Part shown: piece after piece, positions 17,033 through 35,032 of the stretch
How positions within the stretch are numbered: position 1 is the stretch's first letter
Layout of the letters: every line of letters begins with the position of its first letter
Source of the DNA: Candidatus Peribacteria bacterium
Lineage (GTDB): Bacteria; Patescibacteriota; Gracilibacteria; Peribacterales; Peribacteraceae
Length of the DNA: 35,032 nucleotides
NCBI GenBank assembly: GCA_023245935.1
Contig: JAHFJM010000006.1
Coordinates: forward strand, 1 to 35,032
Direction: 5' to 3'
Translations under genes and position numbers: made by a program
The notes under the pieces: generated by a model
Told to the model about the DNA's origin: nothing
Database searches by the model: none
Seen by the model: only the letters and a program-made list of their open reading frames with translations

Positions 17033-17155
17033 TTATTTATATTGCTTGCACTCACAATCGGCCTTGATGCACTCGTTACCGTATGGATGATCGACACGGT
17101 GATGACCGCACTTCCTGCACGAGTAAGATTTTTTTACTTGCTGTGGATGGTTCAT
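17033..17155 (-). CDS. 40-residue zinc-finger protein after the large terminase
   Basis: The ATG at 17155 overlaps the terminase TGA (ATGA) and the gene ends at TAA 17033. The protein MNHPQQVKKSYSCRKCGHHR then DHPYGNECIKADCECKQY has CxxC and a second Cys cluster (C-x4-C-x-C) with interspersed His, consistent with one zinc site. Small Cys-rich proteins next to terminase or head genes often turn out to be HNH-like or adaptor proteins, but this one lacks a complete HNH motif. The function is unknown. Confidence 0.6.
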   Translation of the reverse strand: MNHPQQVKKSYSCRKCGHHRVDHPYGNECIKADCECKQYK

Positions 17156-18669
17156 AGGACTATGACATCGAGCGGCTGCGCACCGCTTACTCTAAACATA
17201 CCAAGCACGAGCTGCACGAAAGCGTCCACGAGGTCGTCGTGTTCCTCAACGCCGAAGCCCAAGAGCTGCGCGATCAGATCCTCGCACCCTCGCCGCGGGA
17301 AGCGCACGAACTTTATAAACACTGCGGCCTGCGCAAGACGCGATCGCTTGTCTGTTCCGACTTTAACCGGCTCCGCCGGTATGCCCGCCTCCTGCACCAT
17401 TTCGATCGCCGCTCTTTGATAGGCAACATCTTCCATGAAAAATATCGGCTCGGCAAAGTTCTTCGCAACCGATACCCTCACTGCTTTCGCTCGCGCGATA
17501 GTCTCGGTAAATGAGAGCCGCTCGTTCACCGGATGAGGAAGGATATAAAGCAGGGGATGCTCGCCTTCTGCCGGCCGAGCGTTCACTCCGGAGACAAACG
17601 TAGTGCAGTCGGCCGTTTCTTTTTTACTGATTGCAAGGTCGTTGCCGACGCCGGCCGAAAGGATCGGATTAAACTTGAGAGATCTCTTACCGAGCCGATC
17701 GGTCTCGTAAACCGGTGCCGGCACTTCGTCATAGTATTCGATCATGTCGTCCTTAATGACGGCACCTTCTTCCGGAACGACCTGCAACAACATCTCTCTT
17801 TGCCACGCGACCATACCCATTTCGAGCCTCTTGCCCTCGAGCTTCTCCTGCGTGGGGTACTTCGCTTTCCACGAACACGATCCGTCCTTATTGAAAAGGG
17901 GATACTCGAGCACCTTGAAGCGGCCGCGGTTCTTCATGCGAGCCATAAGTGCGTCGCGATGCAACCAGTTCCCGAGCAGGACGACTTTACGCGTGCCTTC
18001 GTCCATCGCCGGCAATACCTCACCAGTCATCCATCGTTCGGTCTTGTCTCTGTTCTCTTTCGATCGTACCCATTCAAGATCCTCCGGATCGTCGATCGCA
18101 GCGAGCTTAGGCCGGTGCTGTCTATGACGGAGACCGCGCACCTTCTGCCCGCGGGATCTCGCAAGGATCCGGACGCCGTTCGAGAGCAACATATTTTTTG
18201 CCTGCCATTCCTCATCACTCTCGAGCGTAGGATCCTCGAGGGATTTATCCGGCGCTTTAGAAAGTTCGAAGCGGCCATAGTCTTGCAGTAAGAGCTCGTT
18301 ATTCTCGAACTCCTCTTTGATATTCGCGATATTGATCGCGGCCTGCAACGCGGTATCGGCGATCGGGAGAATGAACGGGTACACTTCCGGCTTTTCGACG
18401 GCCGCATAAATCGGCAGAACAAGAGATCCCATTACGGACTTCGCGCAGCCGCGCCATCCGATCACCTCTAAGAGATCTATATCCGGATCCTCGATATTCT
18501 TAATGAGATCGTTATGAAAGTCGGCCGGCGGCAAATAAAAGTAATGCGGCAAATAGAGGATGCCGAAGCCGAGCATACCGAACTTCTTCACGAACTCTTT
18601 GCGGAGATCGTAGTTCTCAAGAAGATCGTTGAGCTGCTGCGGGTTCAGTTGTAGGCTGCTCGGTAGCAT
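17152..18669 (-). CDS. terL: Terminase large subunit
   Basis: The 505-residue protein is the packaging motor ATPase and nuclease that cuts and pumps DNA into the prohead. A deviant Walker A is at 71-78 (GWRGCAKS), Walker B is near 190-197 (AIDDPED), and the coupling-motif region GNWLHRD follows at about 233. The RNase H-like nuclease domain has Asp344 (GVGNDLAIS), Glu413 (FMEDVAYQRA) and the final acidic cluster HDDLVDA at 477-483. All key residues appear present. It overlaps the small subunit by 53 bases, and its TGA overlaps the start of the small zinc-finger gene. The length is typical. Confidence 0.93.
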   Translation of the reverse strand: MLPSSLQLNPQQLNDLLENYDLRKEFVKKFGMLGFGILYLPHYFYLPPADFHNDLIKNIEDPDIDLLEVIGWRGCAKSVMGSLVLPIYAAVEKPEVYPFILPIADTALQAAINIANIKEEFENNELLLQDYGRFELSKAPDKSLEDPTLESDEEWQAKNMLLSNGVRILARSRGQKVRGLRHRQHRPKLAAIDDPEDLEWVRSKENRDKTERWMTGEVLPAMDEGTRKVVLLGNWLHRDALMARMKNRGRFKVLEYPLFNKDGSCSWKAKYPTQEKLEGKRLEMGMVAWQREMLLQVVPEEGAVIKDDMIEYYDEVPAPVYETDRLGKRSLKFNPILSAGVGNDLAISKKETADCTTFVSGVNARPAEGEHPLLYILPHPVNERLSFTETIARAKAVRVSVAKNFAEPIFFMEDVAYQRAAIEMVQEAGIPAEPVKVGTDKRSRLAQAAVFIKFVRFPRRGCEDLIAQLLGFGVEEHDDLVDAFVQLVLGMFRVSGAQPLDVIVL

Positions 18670-19440: not shown

Positions 19441-19647
19441 TTAATCGGTTCCCCTGTCTATAACTGATCGACCTTTGCTGCGCGAAAGATCTCGAATAAA
19501 GAATACCCGATAGAGAAAGGTTCCGTCCTCCGTCCTCGCCCACCACCTATGACACCTCCAACACATGACATGCTTTTTGTCGTAGTAGTCATGATCGAGC
19601 TGTCGGCTGAAATCATGCCTAAAGATCCAACAGAGAAGCGTCCTCAT
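19441..19647 (-). CDS. Small Cys/aromatic protein, DUF1660-like layout
   Basis: The 68-residue protein MRTLLCWIFRHDFSRQLDHDYYDKKHVMCWRCHRWW has the layout of short phage proteins related to DUF1660: a hydrophobic start with Cys-x-x-Phe-x-His, then a CxxC pair about 20 residues later. A metal site from Cys6, His11, Cys29 and Cys32 is plausible. The tail RDLSRSKGRSVIDRGTD is basic. The start overlaps the TGA of the ATPase gene (ATGA). The family match is tentative. Confidence 0.5.
   Translation of the reverse strand: MRTLLCWIFRHDFSRQLDHDYYDKKHVMCWRCHRWWARTEDGTFLYRVFFIRDLSRSKGRSVIDRGTD
19469..19476 (-). promoter_or_regulatory. AAAGGTCG leader motif
   Basis: Minus-strand AAAGGTCG, 32 bases before the ATG at 19436. 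It lies inside the last codons of the preceding small gene. Confidence 0.4.
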
Positions 19648-21419
19648 TTTTCGAGAAAAAGCGTAGGCAGCGCGACGACCATTCCGGATCTCGGATACTC
19701 AATAAGCCCAAGCGTCCGGAGCGCTCCTAAATTGTTCTGGTAGCCGCTCGAGTTTGGACTCTGGCCGGCCTGCTCCGCGAGATCTCCTTTCGGTACCTCC
19801 TCCGGATAGATCCCGATGAGCACCTTCAAGATCGCCCACTGCGAGCTCGAGAGCTTCTTCTCGATCTGCCGGTGCAGATCCAAGGAAGAACTCGGCGCAT
19901 CGTCCGGCTGCGCTACCGCCCTACCCGCATCCGTTATCCCCACCATCTTCGAGCTCGGGTAGATAATCATTCCGGCCGAGCGCAAAGCGCCGAGGTTATT
20001 CTGGTATCCGCTGCTAGTCGAGCTCTGATCGGAAAGGAAGGCGAGTTGATTCTTGTTTGCCGGCGTGAGTCCGATCTGCTCAAGCCATGCGAGCGCGTTC
20101 AAAATCTTCTGCTGCGAGGCAGAAGGATTAAACTCGCCGAACGAGATCTCTACTTTCTGCTTTTCGGTTCGCATCACCGCACTACCTTTAGGCATCTTGT
20201 TATCGGTAATGACTGGAAACCCGAGGATCTTTCTGCCCGAGTCCTTGAGCTCCGGAACCTTGCCCGAGTACATCCCTGCCGGCTTATCTGATGGCCGGTT
20301 TTTCTCGAGCTCATCGAGCTGCTTTAAAAGCGAGAGGGCGAGATGGCGCACCATCGAAATGATATTTTTTGCGTACTCATTCTTTTCGCTCACTAGAGAT
20401 TTTACTGCGTTCCGCTCTGATGCGATGGCGATCAGATGCGGATGTAAAGCCTCCTCGATCTGCGCGGCCGTAGGCTTCCCGCCCTGCTTCTCGAGCCCCG
20501 TGATCTTCGCCTTGAGCGTTCCGATCTCCTGCCGCAACTCCACTTCGGTCTTTTTCTTTTGCTCTGCTTCCTGCGGGAGATCCTTGAGCTGCGAGAGGAT
20601 ACTCTTAATCGCTGCCTTCGGCGGCGTAGCTTTTCTCCCCTGCTTGCTGCCCTTCCGGAAGTGAGTCGTCTGAACCGCGCCGATTTTATACCGCTCGACA
20701 TGCCCGCTGATCGCGGTGCCGAACGCGAAGAACTCCCCAGGCGAAAGATTTCGGAGAGTCTCAAATGCTTCTCGGGCGCTCTTGGCGAAACCGAGCTCGT
20801 CGGCCGTCCGCTTCACGTCGATGTCTTGTCCAGTCCGGCCGAAAAACTTGTTATTGCACTCTGCGATCGCGTCCTTATGGAGCTTGGAGATCCTCTGTGT
20901 CGCGAGTACGCCGCAGAGCTCGCGCTTCCGGCCGCGCGTCATGAGATCGATCACCGCCGCGGCCGCTTCGCTCTCGCCCACCTGCGGGCAAAAGTGATGC
21001 GCCTCATCCAGTACCACCATGCACGGATGCCGGAGCTCCTCGGGCGCCTCGATCAAACTTTCTAAAAAGAGCCGGACGAAATGCTTGCGCTCGTGGAACT
21101 TGAGCTCGGAGAGATCGACGATTGCCGAGACGCCGAGATCGAGGAGCTTTGTCGCAAGAAGTGCGGCGGCGCGAACGTCCGCCGGCATATCCCCTCCCTT
21201 CCCGATCAGAAGATAGTCATCGAACTTTTCCCGCAGGGTATAGAACTCGCCCTCGAGATCGATCACGATCTGCTGCACCTCGCCGTGCGTCTCCTCGAGC
21301 AGCTTCCGGAGAGCCCACGATTTACCTCCTCCGGAGTTCGCCGCGAATAATGCGCGCGTATCGATGAACTTCGGGAGATCTATTTTAAATCCTTCGCCTA
21401 GTGTTATTGTTTTTTTCAT
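19644..21419 (-). CDS. HerA/DUF87-like ATPase with tandem C-terminal winged-helix repeats
   Basis: The 591-residue protein has a Walker A near residues 27-34 (ANSGGGKS) and Walker B near 137-143 (MVVLDEAHHF). ELCGVLATQRISKLHKDAI follows, the layout of HerA/VirB4-type hexameric translocases (DUF87). A Lys/Glu-rich coiled coil spans about 260-350. The C-terminus carries two copies of a winged-helix-like unit, each containing SGYQNNLGALR and an upstream SQQKIL / SQWAIL helix (about 435-500 and 525-590). This predicts a DNA-binding platform. Such ATPases move along or pump DNA. It lies between the HNH gene and the terminase genes. A recombination or packaging-related role is inferred. Confidence 0.82.
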   Translation of the reverse strand: MKKTITLGEGFKIDLPKFIDTRALFAANSGGGKSWALRKLLEETHGEVQQIVIDLEGEFYTLREKFDDYLLIGKGGDMPADVRAAALLATKLLDLGVSAIVDLSELKFHERKHFVRLFLESLIEAPEELRHPCMVVLDEAHHFCPQVGESEAAAAVIDLMTRGRKRELCGVLATQRISKLHKDAIAECNNKFFGRTGQDIDVKRTADELGFAKSAREAFETLRNLSPGEFFAFGTAISGHVERYKIGAVQTTHFRKGSKQGRKATPPKAAIKSILSQLKDLPQEAEQKKKTEVELRQEIGTLKAKITGLEKQGGKPTAAQIEEALHPHLIAIASERNAVKSLVSEKNEYAKNIISMVRHLALSLLKQLDELEKNRPSDKPAGMYSGKVPELKDSGRKILGFPVITDNKMPKGSAVMRTEKQKVEISFGEFNPSASQQKILNALAWLEQIGLTPANKNQLAFLSDQSSTSSGYQNNLGALRSAGMIIYPSSKMVGITDAGRAVAQPDDAPSSSLDLHRQIEKKLSSSQWAILKVLIGIYPEEVPKGDLAEQAGQSPNSSGYQNNLGALRTLGLIEYPRSGMVVALPTLFLEK

Positions 21420-26020: not shown

Positions 26021-26629
26021 TTAGAGCAAATACCCTTCGTGGAGTTTCCCGTACTCGACCCATACGGCAGGGGAATAGTCGACGATCTGCGCGGCCTTAT
26101 TCCGGTTCGTCCGGAGAGCATCGCTTAGTGTCGTTCGATCAGAGAAACGCTCCTCGATCTGGTTGCGGAATACTGCGACCCGTTTCGGCACGAGCTCGCC
26201 GCGGAGCGCAGCCCATCCCCGAGTCGTGATGATCCAGTGACCGCGCCTCTGGATCTTCTTACTGGCCGAGTTGAGGATCATCTTCTTCGCGATCAAGCCG
26301 AGCTTAGATGCCTGTGTCGTCCTGTGGCGTACCGAGTCTGGCGCATCGATCTGAACGACGTGGACGCTATTCGCATCAGTGAATGGGATCCCGTTGATCG
26401 TGTTCTGCCGCACTGCCTTCGCCATCGCGATCAGAAGTAGGGCGTCGGCATAGTCGAAAGTAAAGATCTCCTCAAGCATATTCGCGTTACAGTTCACGCA
26501 ACGATTGCCGGATACGTTACCAATGTGCTGATTGAAAAGACGTTGTACGGTATCCTGCGCGAAACTGAACTCCTGCATGAGCGCCTGTTTTAGATTTTCA
26601 AGTGCTCCGTGCTTCCGATCCTGTGTCAT
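26021..26629 (-). CDS. Probable zinc/winged-helix DNA-binding protein
   Basis: The 202-residue protein has a Cys-x-x-Cys pair (NRCVNCNANMLEEIFTF) near residue 43, then a helical core (YADALLLIAMAKAVRQN). HRTTQASKLGLIAKKM and RRGHWIITTRGWAALRGELVPKRVAVFRN follow, which read like a winged helix with a final recognition helix and wing. It lies directly downstream of the replication initiator, so it may be a loader, repressor or partner for replication. I do not assign a named family. The A-rich leader has no SD. Confidence 0.6.
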   Translation of the reverse strand: MTQDRKHGALENLKQALMQEFSFAQDTVQRLFNQHIGNVSGNRCVNCNANMLEEIFTFDYADALLLIAMAKAVRQNTINGIPFTDANSVHVVQIDAPDSVRHRTTQASKLGLIAKKMILNSASKKIQRRGHWIITTRGWAALRGELVPKRVAVFRNQIEERFSDRTTLSDALRTNRNKAAQIVDYSPAVWVEYGKLHEGYLL

Positions 26630-26656: not shown

Positions 26657-27616
26657 CTAGGCACTCACTTCTTCTCGTTCGGCCGGCGTGAGCGACACGG
26701 CCATCTTTCCTAAGTACTTTGCCTTGAGCTCGGCGAGATCATATACAATCTTATCTCGCGGCACCGGATCCATCCCGCGGCGGACGACATAGCTATCGAG
26801 CTCCTTCCAAAAGTCGGGATGGTTCTTCATTCGATTAAGCAGCCCATTGATTATGCCGGCGGACAAGAACGTGCTGATCGACGGCGAAAACTTTTTAAAG
26901 CTGTAGTTATGGAGGAAGTAGATCGCAGCCTGCTCTAGTGATGTAGGATTTACTCCGGCATGGAGGATGCGCTTTAGGTTGCGGCCATCCTGTCCGGTGA
27001 TGATCGGCTTTATCCCGCGTGCGCTCGTTACCTCATTAAACCAGAAATCGACGAACTTCTTATGCTCTGAAACAATCTTAATCTTTCCCTCGTTTTTATC
27101 TTGTATCGGTGCAGCCGATTTTTCCGGCTGCAAGGTATTTCTTTTTGTAATACCGGTTTCTTTTGTCGTGTCCACTTTTCGGCCAGGCCACTTTTCGGAC
27201 ACCCCCCCTCTTTTTCCAGAGCTTATCCCCACCCTGTCCACTTTTCGGACAGGTTCAAAAAGAGTGGGTTGAGGATGTTTTAGTGATAGCCGGTAATAGA
27301 TACGGTCTCCGTGCAGTCCTCGCTTTACTCCACTATCAAGCTGATTACCTTCCTCATCCAAAGCCTCGATAACCTTATGCGTCTCAACGAGACTTTTAAT
27401 CGCCGCGCTCACCGCACTATGCCCGCGGCCGGACTTCGCCATGAGCTGCCCGCGGCTGATCCAGTCGCGCTCCTTACGCCGGCCAGTCGCGACATCTTCA
27501 ATCCATCCGAGAGTTTGATCCGTAACGATTAAGAGTACCCGCAACTCAACATCTCCGAGTCTCGGCATCCATTCACGAATGATAATGTGCGGGATCTGTG
27601 TCGTGTTCGGGATCAT
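26657..27616 (-). CDS. Replication initiator (lambda O-like) carrying its own origin
   Basis: The 319-residue protein has an N-terminal winged-helix domain (HIIIREWMPRLGDVELRVLLIVTDQTLGW, then WISRGQLMAKSGRGHSAVSAAIKSLVETHKVIEALDEEG). This is the pattern of phage O-type replication proteins. A low-complexity basic linker (110-170) contains the iteron-encoded repeats, and a C-terminal helical domain follows (KFVDFWFNEVTSARG..., ILHAGVNPTSLEQAAIYFLHNYSF). Lambda O likewise carries its iterons inside the linker-coding part of its own gene. The linker DNA here holds three near-palindromic repeats plus a DnaA-like box. The C-terminal part should recruit host helicase machinery. Confidence 0.8.
   Translation of the reverse strand: MIPNTTQIPHIIIREWMPRLGDVELRVLLIVTDQTLGWIEDVATGRRKERDWISRGQLMAKSGRGHSAVSAAIKSLVETHKVIEALDEEGNQLDSGVKRGLHGDRIYYRLSLKHPQPTLFEPVRKVDRVGISSGKRGGVSEKWPGRKVDTTKETGITKRNTLQPEKSAAPIQDKNEGKIKIVSEHKKFVDFWFNEVTSARGIKPIITGQDGRNLKRILHAGVNPTSLEQAAIYFLHNYSFKKFSPSISTFLSAGIINGLLNRMKNHPDFWKELDSYVVRRGMDPVPRDKIVYDLAELKAKYLGKMAVSLTPAEREEVSA
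27111..27131. repeat. Perfect inverted repeat near the iterons
   Basis: GCAGCCG (27111-27117) and CGGCTGC (27125-27131) flank a 7-base loop ATTTTTC. It lies 37 bases from the first iteron inside the replication gene and may be part of the origin. Confidence 0.45.
27168..27252. repeat. Three iterons, putative replication origin
   Basis: Near-palindromic repeats with the consensus TGTCCACTTTTCGGACA occur at about 27169-27185, 27186-27202 and 27235-27251. The core CCACTTTTCGG is identical in all three. The middle copy is read in a different frame from the outer two (EKW versus RKV), so the repeat is conserved as DNA and not as protein. A DnaA-like box TTATCCCCA lies at 27223-27231 between copies two and three. 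Flanking T-rich stretches could unwind. Confidence 0.7.
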
Positions 27617-33306: not shown

Positions 33307-33538
33307 AAGCGGCCGCTTCCGCTCTTTTGGCGGTTAGGCCGGTGTTTATCCACTTAGAGATCTCGCCGAGCACGAGCCCGATTAGAACCGTGAGCTGCGG
33401 CGAAAGCTGAAACTGCGTAAGGTTATCGATTGCGAACTGCACGATCAGTGCGGCAAGCATCATTACCGCCCTCCACAAGAAGGACTGTATGCGCTTCCAG
33501 AGCTGATCTATGAGCTGCTTTTTTGCTTCTGGTGTCAT
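33305..33538 (-). CDS. Holin-like two-span membrane protein
   Basis: The 77-residue protein has two hydrophobic segments (RAVMMLAALIVQFAIDNL at about 23-40 and LTVLIGLVLGEISKWINTGL at about 49-68) joined by a short loop, with charged ends. This is the layout of a class II-like holin that permeabilises the inner membrane at lysis. The start overlaps the peptidase stop (ATGA). The segment GLVLGEISKWINTG resembles small membrane proteins coded beside endolysins. The call is by topology and position. Confidence 0.7.
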   Translation of the reverse strand: MTPEAKKQLIDQLWKRIQSFLWRAVMMLAALIVQFAIDNLTQFQLSPQLTVLIGLVLGEISKWINTGLTAKRAEAAA

Positions 33539-34668
33539 GGTTTAAAAAGTTCGTTTAACTTTACTCTGGTTTTAGCTCCTGCGCGTCGACCATTCACGAT
33601 AAGGAGCTCGGCGAGTGAGGCGACCTTGTACCGTGACTGGAACTCTCTCACCGCCTTCTGTGTAACCGATCCGTAATATCCGAGTTGTTTCTCATCGAGG
33701 AGCTGCTTGTAGAGATCCTTCGAAAACTCTCCATCGATCATGAGCGCCGTCTGCAACGCCTCTACCTCTGTGCCGCGCTGTCCGGACTCGAGATCTGTAT
33801 TAAACACATGCCGGAAAGTCTCCGCGCTCGGGAGCTTCTGCACCACCTCGAGATAGTTATTCGGCAGATCGATCGCGCCCCATGCTTCGACAAGGAAGTT
33901 TTTATAGTCGTCATACCAGAACCACCCGCGGCCGGCTTGCGCCCATGCGTTACTCCAAGAGTTTATGAAATATATCTTTAGCCTGCTGTCGCCCACGACT
34001 TCATACTCATCCGGAAAGATCGCATGACCGGAAACTACCGACGCCGGTGGCCGCAGCGGAAGGATCACGGCGGGATCGTAGGATCCTAAACCATTCCGAT
34101 CAGTCCACCATTCCTTGCCGAGCTGCACGCCGAGGAGTAATCCGTTTCCTTCGTAGATGCCCTGCATGAGCTGTTCGGCCGAGATCTTCATAAAGGATCC
34201 TACCTGTGCGTAACTCGCAATCTTATATTTCTTTGCGAGCTCGTATGCCTGCGCGGGGATCTTCGAAAGATCGATATACTCCGCGTGCGAGAGATCCGTG
34301 TCATTCGTGTATTCGGGGATCTCCGGAGGAGCTCCGAACTTCTGTAGGATCTTCACGCCGTTGCGGTAGTACGTTCCTTCGGCCGGCAGGCCATCATCCG
34401 CTTTCGAAAGCGCGTAGACGAAACGCGGATTGATTGGGATGATCGAAGCGGTCTCAATATATTCCTGCTCCTGCTTTTTCTTTCCGCCGGCGTGTCCTAC
34501 GCACGCGCCGATCTTCTTCTGGTTCCAGATCGGCAGCGCGGCCGTATTCGCCCTAAACTTACTAGGCAGGCTCGCGGCCGCGGCGGATCCTAGAACTGCC
34601 TCGGCCGGAATGTCGCGATAGTCCGGAACCGACTGAATACCTCCTAAAGAAATGTTTGGTGTGTTCAT
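33535..34668 (-). CDS. Papain-type cysteine peptidase fused to a peptidoglycan-binding domain
   Basis: The likely start is ATG 34668, two bases after the upstream stop; an ATG three codons earlier is possible. The peptidase is C1A-like. Numbered from that earlier ATG, Gln53 and Cys59 lie in NQKKIGACVGHA, a catalytic His in VVSGHAIFPDEYEVVGD near 220, and Asn in YFINSWSNAWAQAGRGWFWYDDY near 245. The order Gln-Cys-His-Asn is complete. The C-terminal 100 residues form a PG_binding_1-like domain (GQRGTEVEALQTALMIDGEFSK, VTQKAVREFQSRY). It lies directly before the holin, so it is a candidate endolysin or lysis-associated peptidase; a virion role is the alternative. Confidence 0.82.
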   Translation of the reverse strand: MNTPNISLGGIQSVPDYRDIPAEAVLGSAAAASLPSKFRANTAALPIWNQKKIGACVGHAGGKKKQEQEYIETASIIPINPRFVYALSKADDGLPAEGTYYRNGVKILQKFGAPPEIPEYTNDTDLSHAEYIDLSKIPAQAYELAKKYKIASYAQVGSFMKISAEQLMQGIYEGNGLLLGVQLGKEWWTDRNGLGSYDPAVILPLRPPASVVSGHAIFPDEYEVVGDSRLKIYFINSWSNAWAQAGRGWFWYDDYKNFLVEAWGAIDLPNNYLEVVQKLPSAETFRHVFNTDLESGQRGTEVEALQTALMIDGEFSKDLYKQLLDEKQLGYYGSVTQKAVREFQSRYKVASLAELLIVNGRRAGAKTRVKLNELFKP

Positions 34669-34669
34669 A

Positions 34670-35032
34670 TTATGCATGTACTTTTAATCCGTTTCCGATC
34701 TTGTTATTAAGCGCTTCCAAGAAGTCGCGCACCTGCTTCAATGTTTCCTCGAGCTCGGGGTTCCGGTTTGAAATGATCCGGAGGTACTGTTCGAGTAGCG
34801 CGTCTTTGTGCTTGTTCACTTCCTCGAGCTTGGCGATCTTGATCTCGTTTTCGTGATGCATCTTCCGCATATCCTCGAGCTCTTTCTGGAAAGCGTCTGC
34901 ACGTTTTGAAAGAAGATCGATCGTAGAGTTCGCGGTCGATAGAGCATCGGACTCTTTTTTGCTGCGGCCGTTCCGCCACTGCCCGATCGCGAATATCACC
35001 CCTCCGATCGCGATGCAGATATTGATAGTGAT
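34670..35032 (-). CDS. Membrane-anchored coiled-coil protein, N-terminus beyond window
   Basis: The frame is open to the right edge, so the gene is partial. A GTG at 34999 is only an internal codon. The visible start ITINICIAIGGVIFAIGQW is a membrane span, followed by RNGRSKKESDALSTANSTIDLLSKRADAFQKELEDMRKMHHENEIKIAKLEEVNKHKDALLEQYLRI, a coiled coil, and then a short tail. Membrane-anchored coiled coils next to holin and lysin genes are often spanin-like or holin partners. The stop is followed two bases later by the peptidase start, so the two are likely coupled. Confidence 0.65.
   Translation of the reverse strand: MTINICIAIGGVIFAIGQWRNGRSKKESDALSTANSTIDLLSKRADAFQKELEDMRKMHHENEIKIAKLEEVNKHKDALLEQYLRIISNRNPELEETLKQVRDFLEALNNKIGNGLKVHA

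Follow-up and report, generated by a model that had tools for sequence, protein, structure and literature searches.

A probable lambda-type replication origin within an O-like initiator gene in a Patescibacteria-associated tailed phage

A tailed phage associated with an uncultured, ultra-small Patescibacterium very probably carries a lambda-type theta replication origin embedded in its own O-like initiator gene. The gene lies in a stretch of 35,032 b, referred to here as the window, which corresponds to one whole contig of a 1.2-Mb genome that is 99% complete. Near-palindromic iterons, an A-rich element that we call the AT box and an inverted repeat follow one another within the part of the gene that encodes the protein linker (Table 1). 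Lambdoid origins are known to lie in O, where iterons are combined with AT-rich DNA. As far as the open-access literature shows, the new elements are the occurrence in Patescibacteria-associated phages, the conservation through three reading frames and the geometry, with a dyad at -11 and a hairpin near +33. The open-access papers searched include none on origins in Patescibacteria phages; most subscription papers, including the 1979 comparisons of lambdoid origins, fall outside this search.

The phage and its O-like protein

The window is a tailed phage, either binned with or resident in the Patescibacteria genome. It has genes for a terminase, a portal protein, head proteins, a tape-measure protein of the tail and minor tail proteins. 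In addition, a replication and recombination block contains RecT-like and YqaJ-like genes, both upstream of the O-like gene, and a weak RusA-like match. The binning suggests that the phage infects the genome with which it was grouped. The O protein was not found in 143 relatives or 352 class members, which indicates that the phage is rare in the host's own lineage. A clear large terminase subunit (TerL) is encoded at 17152-18669, separately from a HerA/FtsK-like ATPase gene at 19644-21419 (-) whose PHROG match is labelled terminase large subunit; the product of the latter gene could be a second DNA-translocating ATPase.

The O-like protein gave a moderate match to PHROG 678, "replication initiation O-like" (5e-8), and a match below the cut-off to Pfam Phage_rep_O (1e-3). 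An AF2 model, built from a 15-row alignment, places an N-terminal domain and a helical C-terminal domain, both predicted with confidence, on either side of a linker predicted to be disordered (amino acids 114-178; pLDDT under 50). A profile search of PDB sequences returned nothing credible and Foldseek found no significant match in the PDB. A second structural aligner, applied after Foldseek, matched the N-terminal domain to winged-helix domains with Z up to 10.8 and an rmsd of 2-2.5 over 83-88 residues. Such a modeled fold fits the predicted dimeric binding to dyads. The iterons encode amino acids 122-150 and therefore fall within the linker.

The place of lambda P, just downstream, is taken by a gene with a CxxC motif, which is conserved in the related locus L001 (1574-2227). 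It showed no Pfam or PHROG family match, and no P-like loader was recognized beside the O-like gene. By position only, its product is a candidate helicase loader.

Table 1 Features of the O-like gene and the putative origin in the window
Feature	Coordinates	Strand	Evidence
O-like replication initiator gene, 319 aa	26657-27616	-	PHROG, Pfam, AF2, winged-helix matches
Distal iteron TGTCCGAAAAGTGGACA (coding strand), exact, 77 bp upstream of AT box	27235-27251	-	
DnaA-like 9-mer TTATCCCCA, one mismatch from TTATCCACA, putative	27223-27231	+	
Middle iteron, 2 mismatches, frame unlike that of the outer copies	27185-27201	-	17-mer search, out-of-frame repeat test
Iteron nearest AT box, 1 mismatch, dyad centre 27177	27169-27185	-	
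AT box 1 ACAAAAGAAAC (coding strand), corresponds to lambda 39121-39131	27156-27166	-	
AT box 2 TTACAAAA (coding strand)	27143-27150	-	
Hairpin TGCAGCCG-GAAAAAT-CGGCTGCA, starts +34 from anchor	27110-27132	-	
Gene in place of lambda P, just downstream of O-like gene	26021-26629	-	Position; also in L001

Iterons, AT box and hairpin in the window

The first-pass annotation of this DNA had described three near-palindromes in the linker-coding part of the O-like gene. All three were recovered as copies of the 17-mer TGTCCACTTTTCGGACA, one of them exact and the others with one and two mismatches. Elsewhere in the 35-kb window, no place lies within three mismatches of this sequence (shuffles, mean of 0.04), and a tandem-repeat search of the window revealed no further iteron-like array. 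The middle iteron and the iteron nearest the AT box have base 27185 in common. As had been noted earlier, the middle copy is read in a different frame: the spacings are 16, 50 and 66 bases, so that the outer two copies share a frame. From the dyad centre nearest the AT box to the ACAAAAG anchor at 27166, the distance is 11 bp.

To quantify the repeats, 300 synonymous-codon shuffles that keep the protein and its codon usage served as the null. The 120 nt before the AT box contain 24 near-identical 11-mer pairs, whereas the shuffles average 0.58 and never exceed 7, and the repeats therefore go beyond what the encoded protein imposes. Of the 24 pairs, 13 are out of frame, compared to a shuffle maximum of 4. 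These counts support the earlier proposal that selection acts on the DNA, and the AT box, which occurs in three frames among the relatives, supports it more strongly still.

Two further iteron candidates were set aside. A degenerate fourth copy in the window (CTCTTTTTCCAGAG, 27208-27221) was omitted as unsupported. The single exact match to the iteron in viral contigs, in L003, lies inside a methyltransferase-like gene and is an unrelated chance occurrence.

Although it forms the strongest part of the evidence, the AT box was absent from the first-pass annotation. Directly after the last iteron, the coding strand carries a strand-asymmetric A-rich region (ACAAAAGAAACCGGTATTACAAAA, 27143-27166, minus strand), and lambda has the same class of string. 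The window element adjoining this iteron has the form ACAAAAGAAAC-N5-TTACAAAA.

The perfect 7-bp inverted repeat reported close by was found at 27111-27131 (GCAGCCG/CGGCTGC), and its stem grows to 8 bp when the flanking T and A are included. Of 20 relatives, 8 have a strong stem that starts between +32 and +37. Between +20 and +90, the best stem is on average stronger than in any of 20,000 random-window draws from the same genes. The inverted repeat thus recurs among the relatives at a preferred position. Candidates for its role are delimiting the opened region and assisting helicase loading.

The DnaA-like box fared less well. It is present between iteron copies two and three, as described, but it is weak, with its one mismatch and with exact boxes in only 2 of 19 relatives. 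The latter two, L016 and L017, each have two exact boxes near the AT box, a total of 4 versus 0.04 expected. DnaA may thus help at the origins of some relatives, and the single imperfect box of the window is weak evidence for such a role.

Conservation and geometry among relatives

Protein searches yielded about 20 non-redundant O-like relatives. Their N-terminal domain is well conserved and their linker poorly so; a linker whose protein sequence is free to vary leaves the DNA there able to carry an origin. Repeat or dyad families particular to each phage occur in these linkers, among them GCAAAAAGTGCGGG, CCCTCGTCAAAAA, CATCGTGTGACAAAA and TTCGGAAAGTGAA; different iterons thus occupy the same place and are followed by the same AT box. 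In the relatives, TACAAAAGAAAC comes directly after the last iteron, and then TTACAAAA or a close form. Comparison with related phages, which the annotation had envisaged, thereby confirmed the layout and showed it to be more widely and strictly kept than had been claimed. Other Patescibacteria-associated phages (L001, L002, L010, L014 and L015), with homologous O-like proteins of about 46-57% identity, resemble the window in having an iteron pair 15-16 bp apart plus a distal copy, an AT box and, in most cases, a hairpin. They differ in that each has its own iteron sequence and in that L010 is without the C-terminal domain.

Among the relatives, the AT box is kept at the DNA level whichever of the three reading frames it falls in. 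Its translation is TKETxxTK in most, YKRN in L002, L019 and L077, and YKRK in L072; the first copy gives LQK in L026 but QQK in L020. TKET-frame genes with an intact box use ACA-AAA-GAA exclusively, with a product probability of 10^-13 when each gene's own codon usage is applied and kinship is ignored. Repeats exceed the synonymous shuffles in most tested relatives, with L010, L015, L016 and L069 not significant on the total count. Out-of-frame repeats are significant in L001, L002, L014, L018, L026, L067, L074 and L075, and nominally so (p 0.01-0.05) in L010 and L015.

With the first A of ACAAAAG as zero point, the mean palindrome score over 20 loci peaks at -11, where it equals 0.583 versus 0.236 +/- 0.058 elsewhere (next best, 0.383). 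This peak was reached by 0 of 20,000 circular-shift controls. The second iteron lies 15-16 bp beyond the last in most relatives (16 in the window), and a third copy 41-75 bp beyond the last. In 16 viral-contig classes picked by the AT box alone, the -11 dyad is found in several but is not significant for the group (P = 0.76); some of these classes place the dyad near -10 or do not represent origins.

The exact AT pattern occurs four times in 380 genomes of the phylum. Three occurrences lie in O-like genes found independently by the protein search and the fourth in an unrelated reading frame (L082), while the reversed pattern, used as a control in the same genomes, gave 0 matches. In viral contigs, a good share of the AT-box matches falls in unrelated genes or intergenic repeats, outside O genes, so the AT box alone is not proof of an origin.

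Comparison with lambda and competing readings

The lambda ori consists of four iterons (ITN1-4) and a 38-40 bp AT-rich region inside gene O. Like that of the window, it sits in the linker-coding part of the gene, and its iterons are near-palindromes with an A-tract centre. The last lambda dyad lies 11 bp before ACAAAAG when the ITN4 centre is set by the register of the other iterons (the automatic best centre is at 10.5). After ITN4 follows a ACAAAAGA-AC...TTACAAAA box, which reads ...CCCTCAAAACAGGGGGACACAAAAGACACTATTACAAAAGAAAA in the annotated lambda record, and an inverted repeat, GTCAGAG...CTCTGAC, is found downstream at +41, near the +34 of the window. This direct comparison, together with the relatives, supports the earlier view that the window copies the lambda arrangement of O with an origin in the gene and a new iteron.

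However, several features differ. The window iteron, TGTCC-GAAAAGT-GGACA, is not that of lambda, and its three copies, at -11, -27 and -77, are less regular than the four of lambda at -11, -34, -58 and -78. Most relatives have a spacing of 15-16 bp between their last two iterons, against 20-24 bp in lambda (last pair, 23), which would place neighboring dyads about 1.5 helical turns apart in the window and its relatives and about 2 in lambda. The two AT boxes of the window are 3 bp further apart. Unlike lambda, the window is without a recognizable P gene, and its setting is Patescibacteria.

Published lambda deletions bear on the function of the boxes. The ori deletions r99 and r96 span 39120-39131 and 39138-39152, respectively (PMC6022878). 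When these coordinates are mapped on the lambda record, r99 removes CACAAAAGACAC exactly and r96 removes most of the second box. O proteins with 12- and 15-bp in-frame deletions of the AT region (ori95 and ori96) complement in trans, and prophages with ori95/ori96-type deletions are defective in replication from ori (PMC6022878). Since r99 and r96 fall on the boxes and the O alleles complement in trans, the conserved boxes coincide with lambda DNA needed in cis. In lambda, unwinding requires the AT region, but O can bind the iterons without it (PMC7466680), and the region is opened by O binding (PMC5043065).

The dyad 17-mers would also suit a dimeric winged-helix protein acting as a regulator. 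They might then be operators at which the O-like protein or another such regulator controls transcription through the gene that contains them, with replication starting elsewhere, and a binding site within the gene could act as a transcription roadblock. We nevertheless consider operators very unlikely, because they would not account for a conserved A-rich box at a constant distance of 11 bp, for the hairpin that follows it or for the resemblance to lambda ori, in which r99 and r96 fall on the boxes. Even less probable is selection at the protein level, by which the repeats and TKETxxTK would be peptide motifs maintained in the linker, for example for docking. The similar TKETxxTK and TKDTITKE readings of most relatives and lambda agree with this, but the same DNA is read in each of the three frames, the repeats outnumber those of synonymous shuffles, the linker is predicted to be disordered and lambda O with the boxes deleted still complements (PMC6022878). 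The RecT-like and YqaJ-like genes upstream and the irregular iteron spacing could point to a decayed origin, inherited in arrangement while replication now proceeds otherwise, for instance by recombination through that gene pair; this is highly improbable given that iterons and AT box are intact and that the repeat is homogenized within the locus yet unlike those of relatives, which points to current use.

For an active lambda-type origin, we propose that the O-like protein, as a dimer, uses its N-terminal winged-helix domain to bind the near-palindromic iterons. Once assembled, this complex would strain and open the adjacent A-rich element, ACAAAAGAAAC-N5-TTACAAAA, with the hairpin possibly marking its far edge, and a host or phage helicase would be loaded there. 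GC skew across the window is uninformative in this respect, with no clear switch at the site.

The same iteron-AT-box layout with phage-specific iterons is seen in P22 gene 18, Proteus BPM-V3 and Mannheimia 1152AP2. These three differ in that their iterons are about 23 bp apart and their proteins are only distantly alike outside the N-domain. In Pseudomonas PAJU2 and an Acinetobacter phage, the AT box is not clearly present. More tentatively, and with somewhat more doubt than conviction, we suggest that lambda-type origins from Enterobacteria to Patescibacteria phages have one DNA grammar in common, in which the boxes are read as sequence. It would run from an iteron dyad over 11 bp to ACAAAAGAAAC, then over 2-8 bp to TTACAAAA and a hairpin near +33. 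The DNA would stay constant when the frame changes, the iterons would be replaced along with the initiator, and the boxes, rather than being merely AT-rich, might for example be read as single strand by the O/helicase machinery. In iteron plasmids (P1, RK2 and R6K), the origin also combines repeats specific to the initiator with an adjoining AT-rich region, and in some cases DnaA boxes are present (PMC5043065). However, the iterons of plasmids are bound by monomers and are mostly located outside the gene for the initiator, whereas those of the window are dyads inside the gene.

The DNA signature can pinpoint lambda-type phage origins in metagenomes, including those of phages of not-yet-cultured bacteria, and suggests that the "AT-rich" part of such origins carries a specific sequence code. 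Moreover, a mapped Patescibacteria phage replicon would offer a basis for developing replicating vectors for these bacteria, which have few genetic tools.

Some loci deserve separate mention. L010, L017 and L025 look truncated. The L010 O-like gene, a close relative of the window gene from a Candidatus Kaiserbacteria MAG, is sequence-identical to that of G350, a member of the window's phylum, which identifies this phylum as Patescibacteria. In L010 / L022 (Kaiserbacteria MAG), the gene is cut to 179 aa; the C-terminal domain is lost while linker, iterons and AT box are intact, which indicates that the origin was kept. L072 has three tandem 17-bp AT-box copies (TACAAAAGAAAAACTAT, about 2436-2485), each in a different frame of one linker. 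Among viral contigs, L032, L039, L044, L045 and L047 contain GTTACAAAAG-type repeat arrays outside long reading frames and unrelated to O genes, which may represent another origin or regulatory array. Finally, the window gene at 33535-34677 (-) encodes a C-terminal peptidoglycan-binding domain (PG_binding_1) and, by eye, papain-like sequence features. A similar architecture occurs at 1053-2537 of L002, 2.5 kb upstream of O, and the product may serve these phages as an enzyme for lysis or acting on the cell wall.
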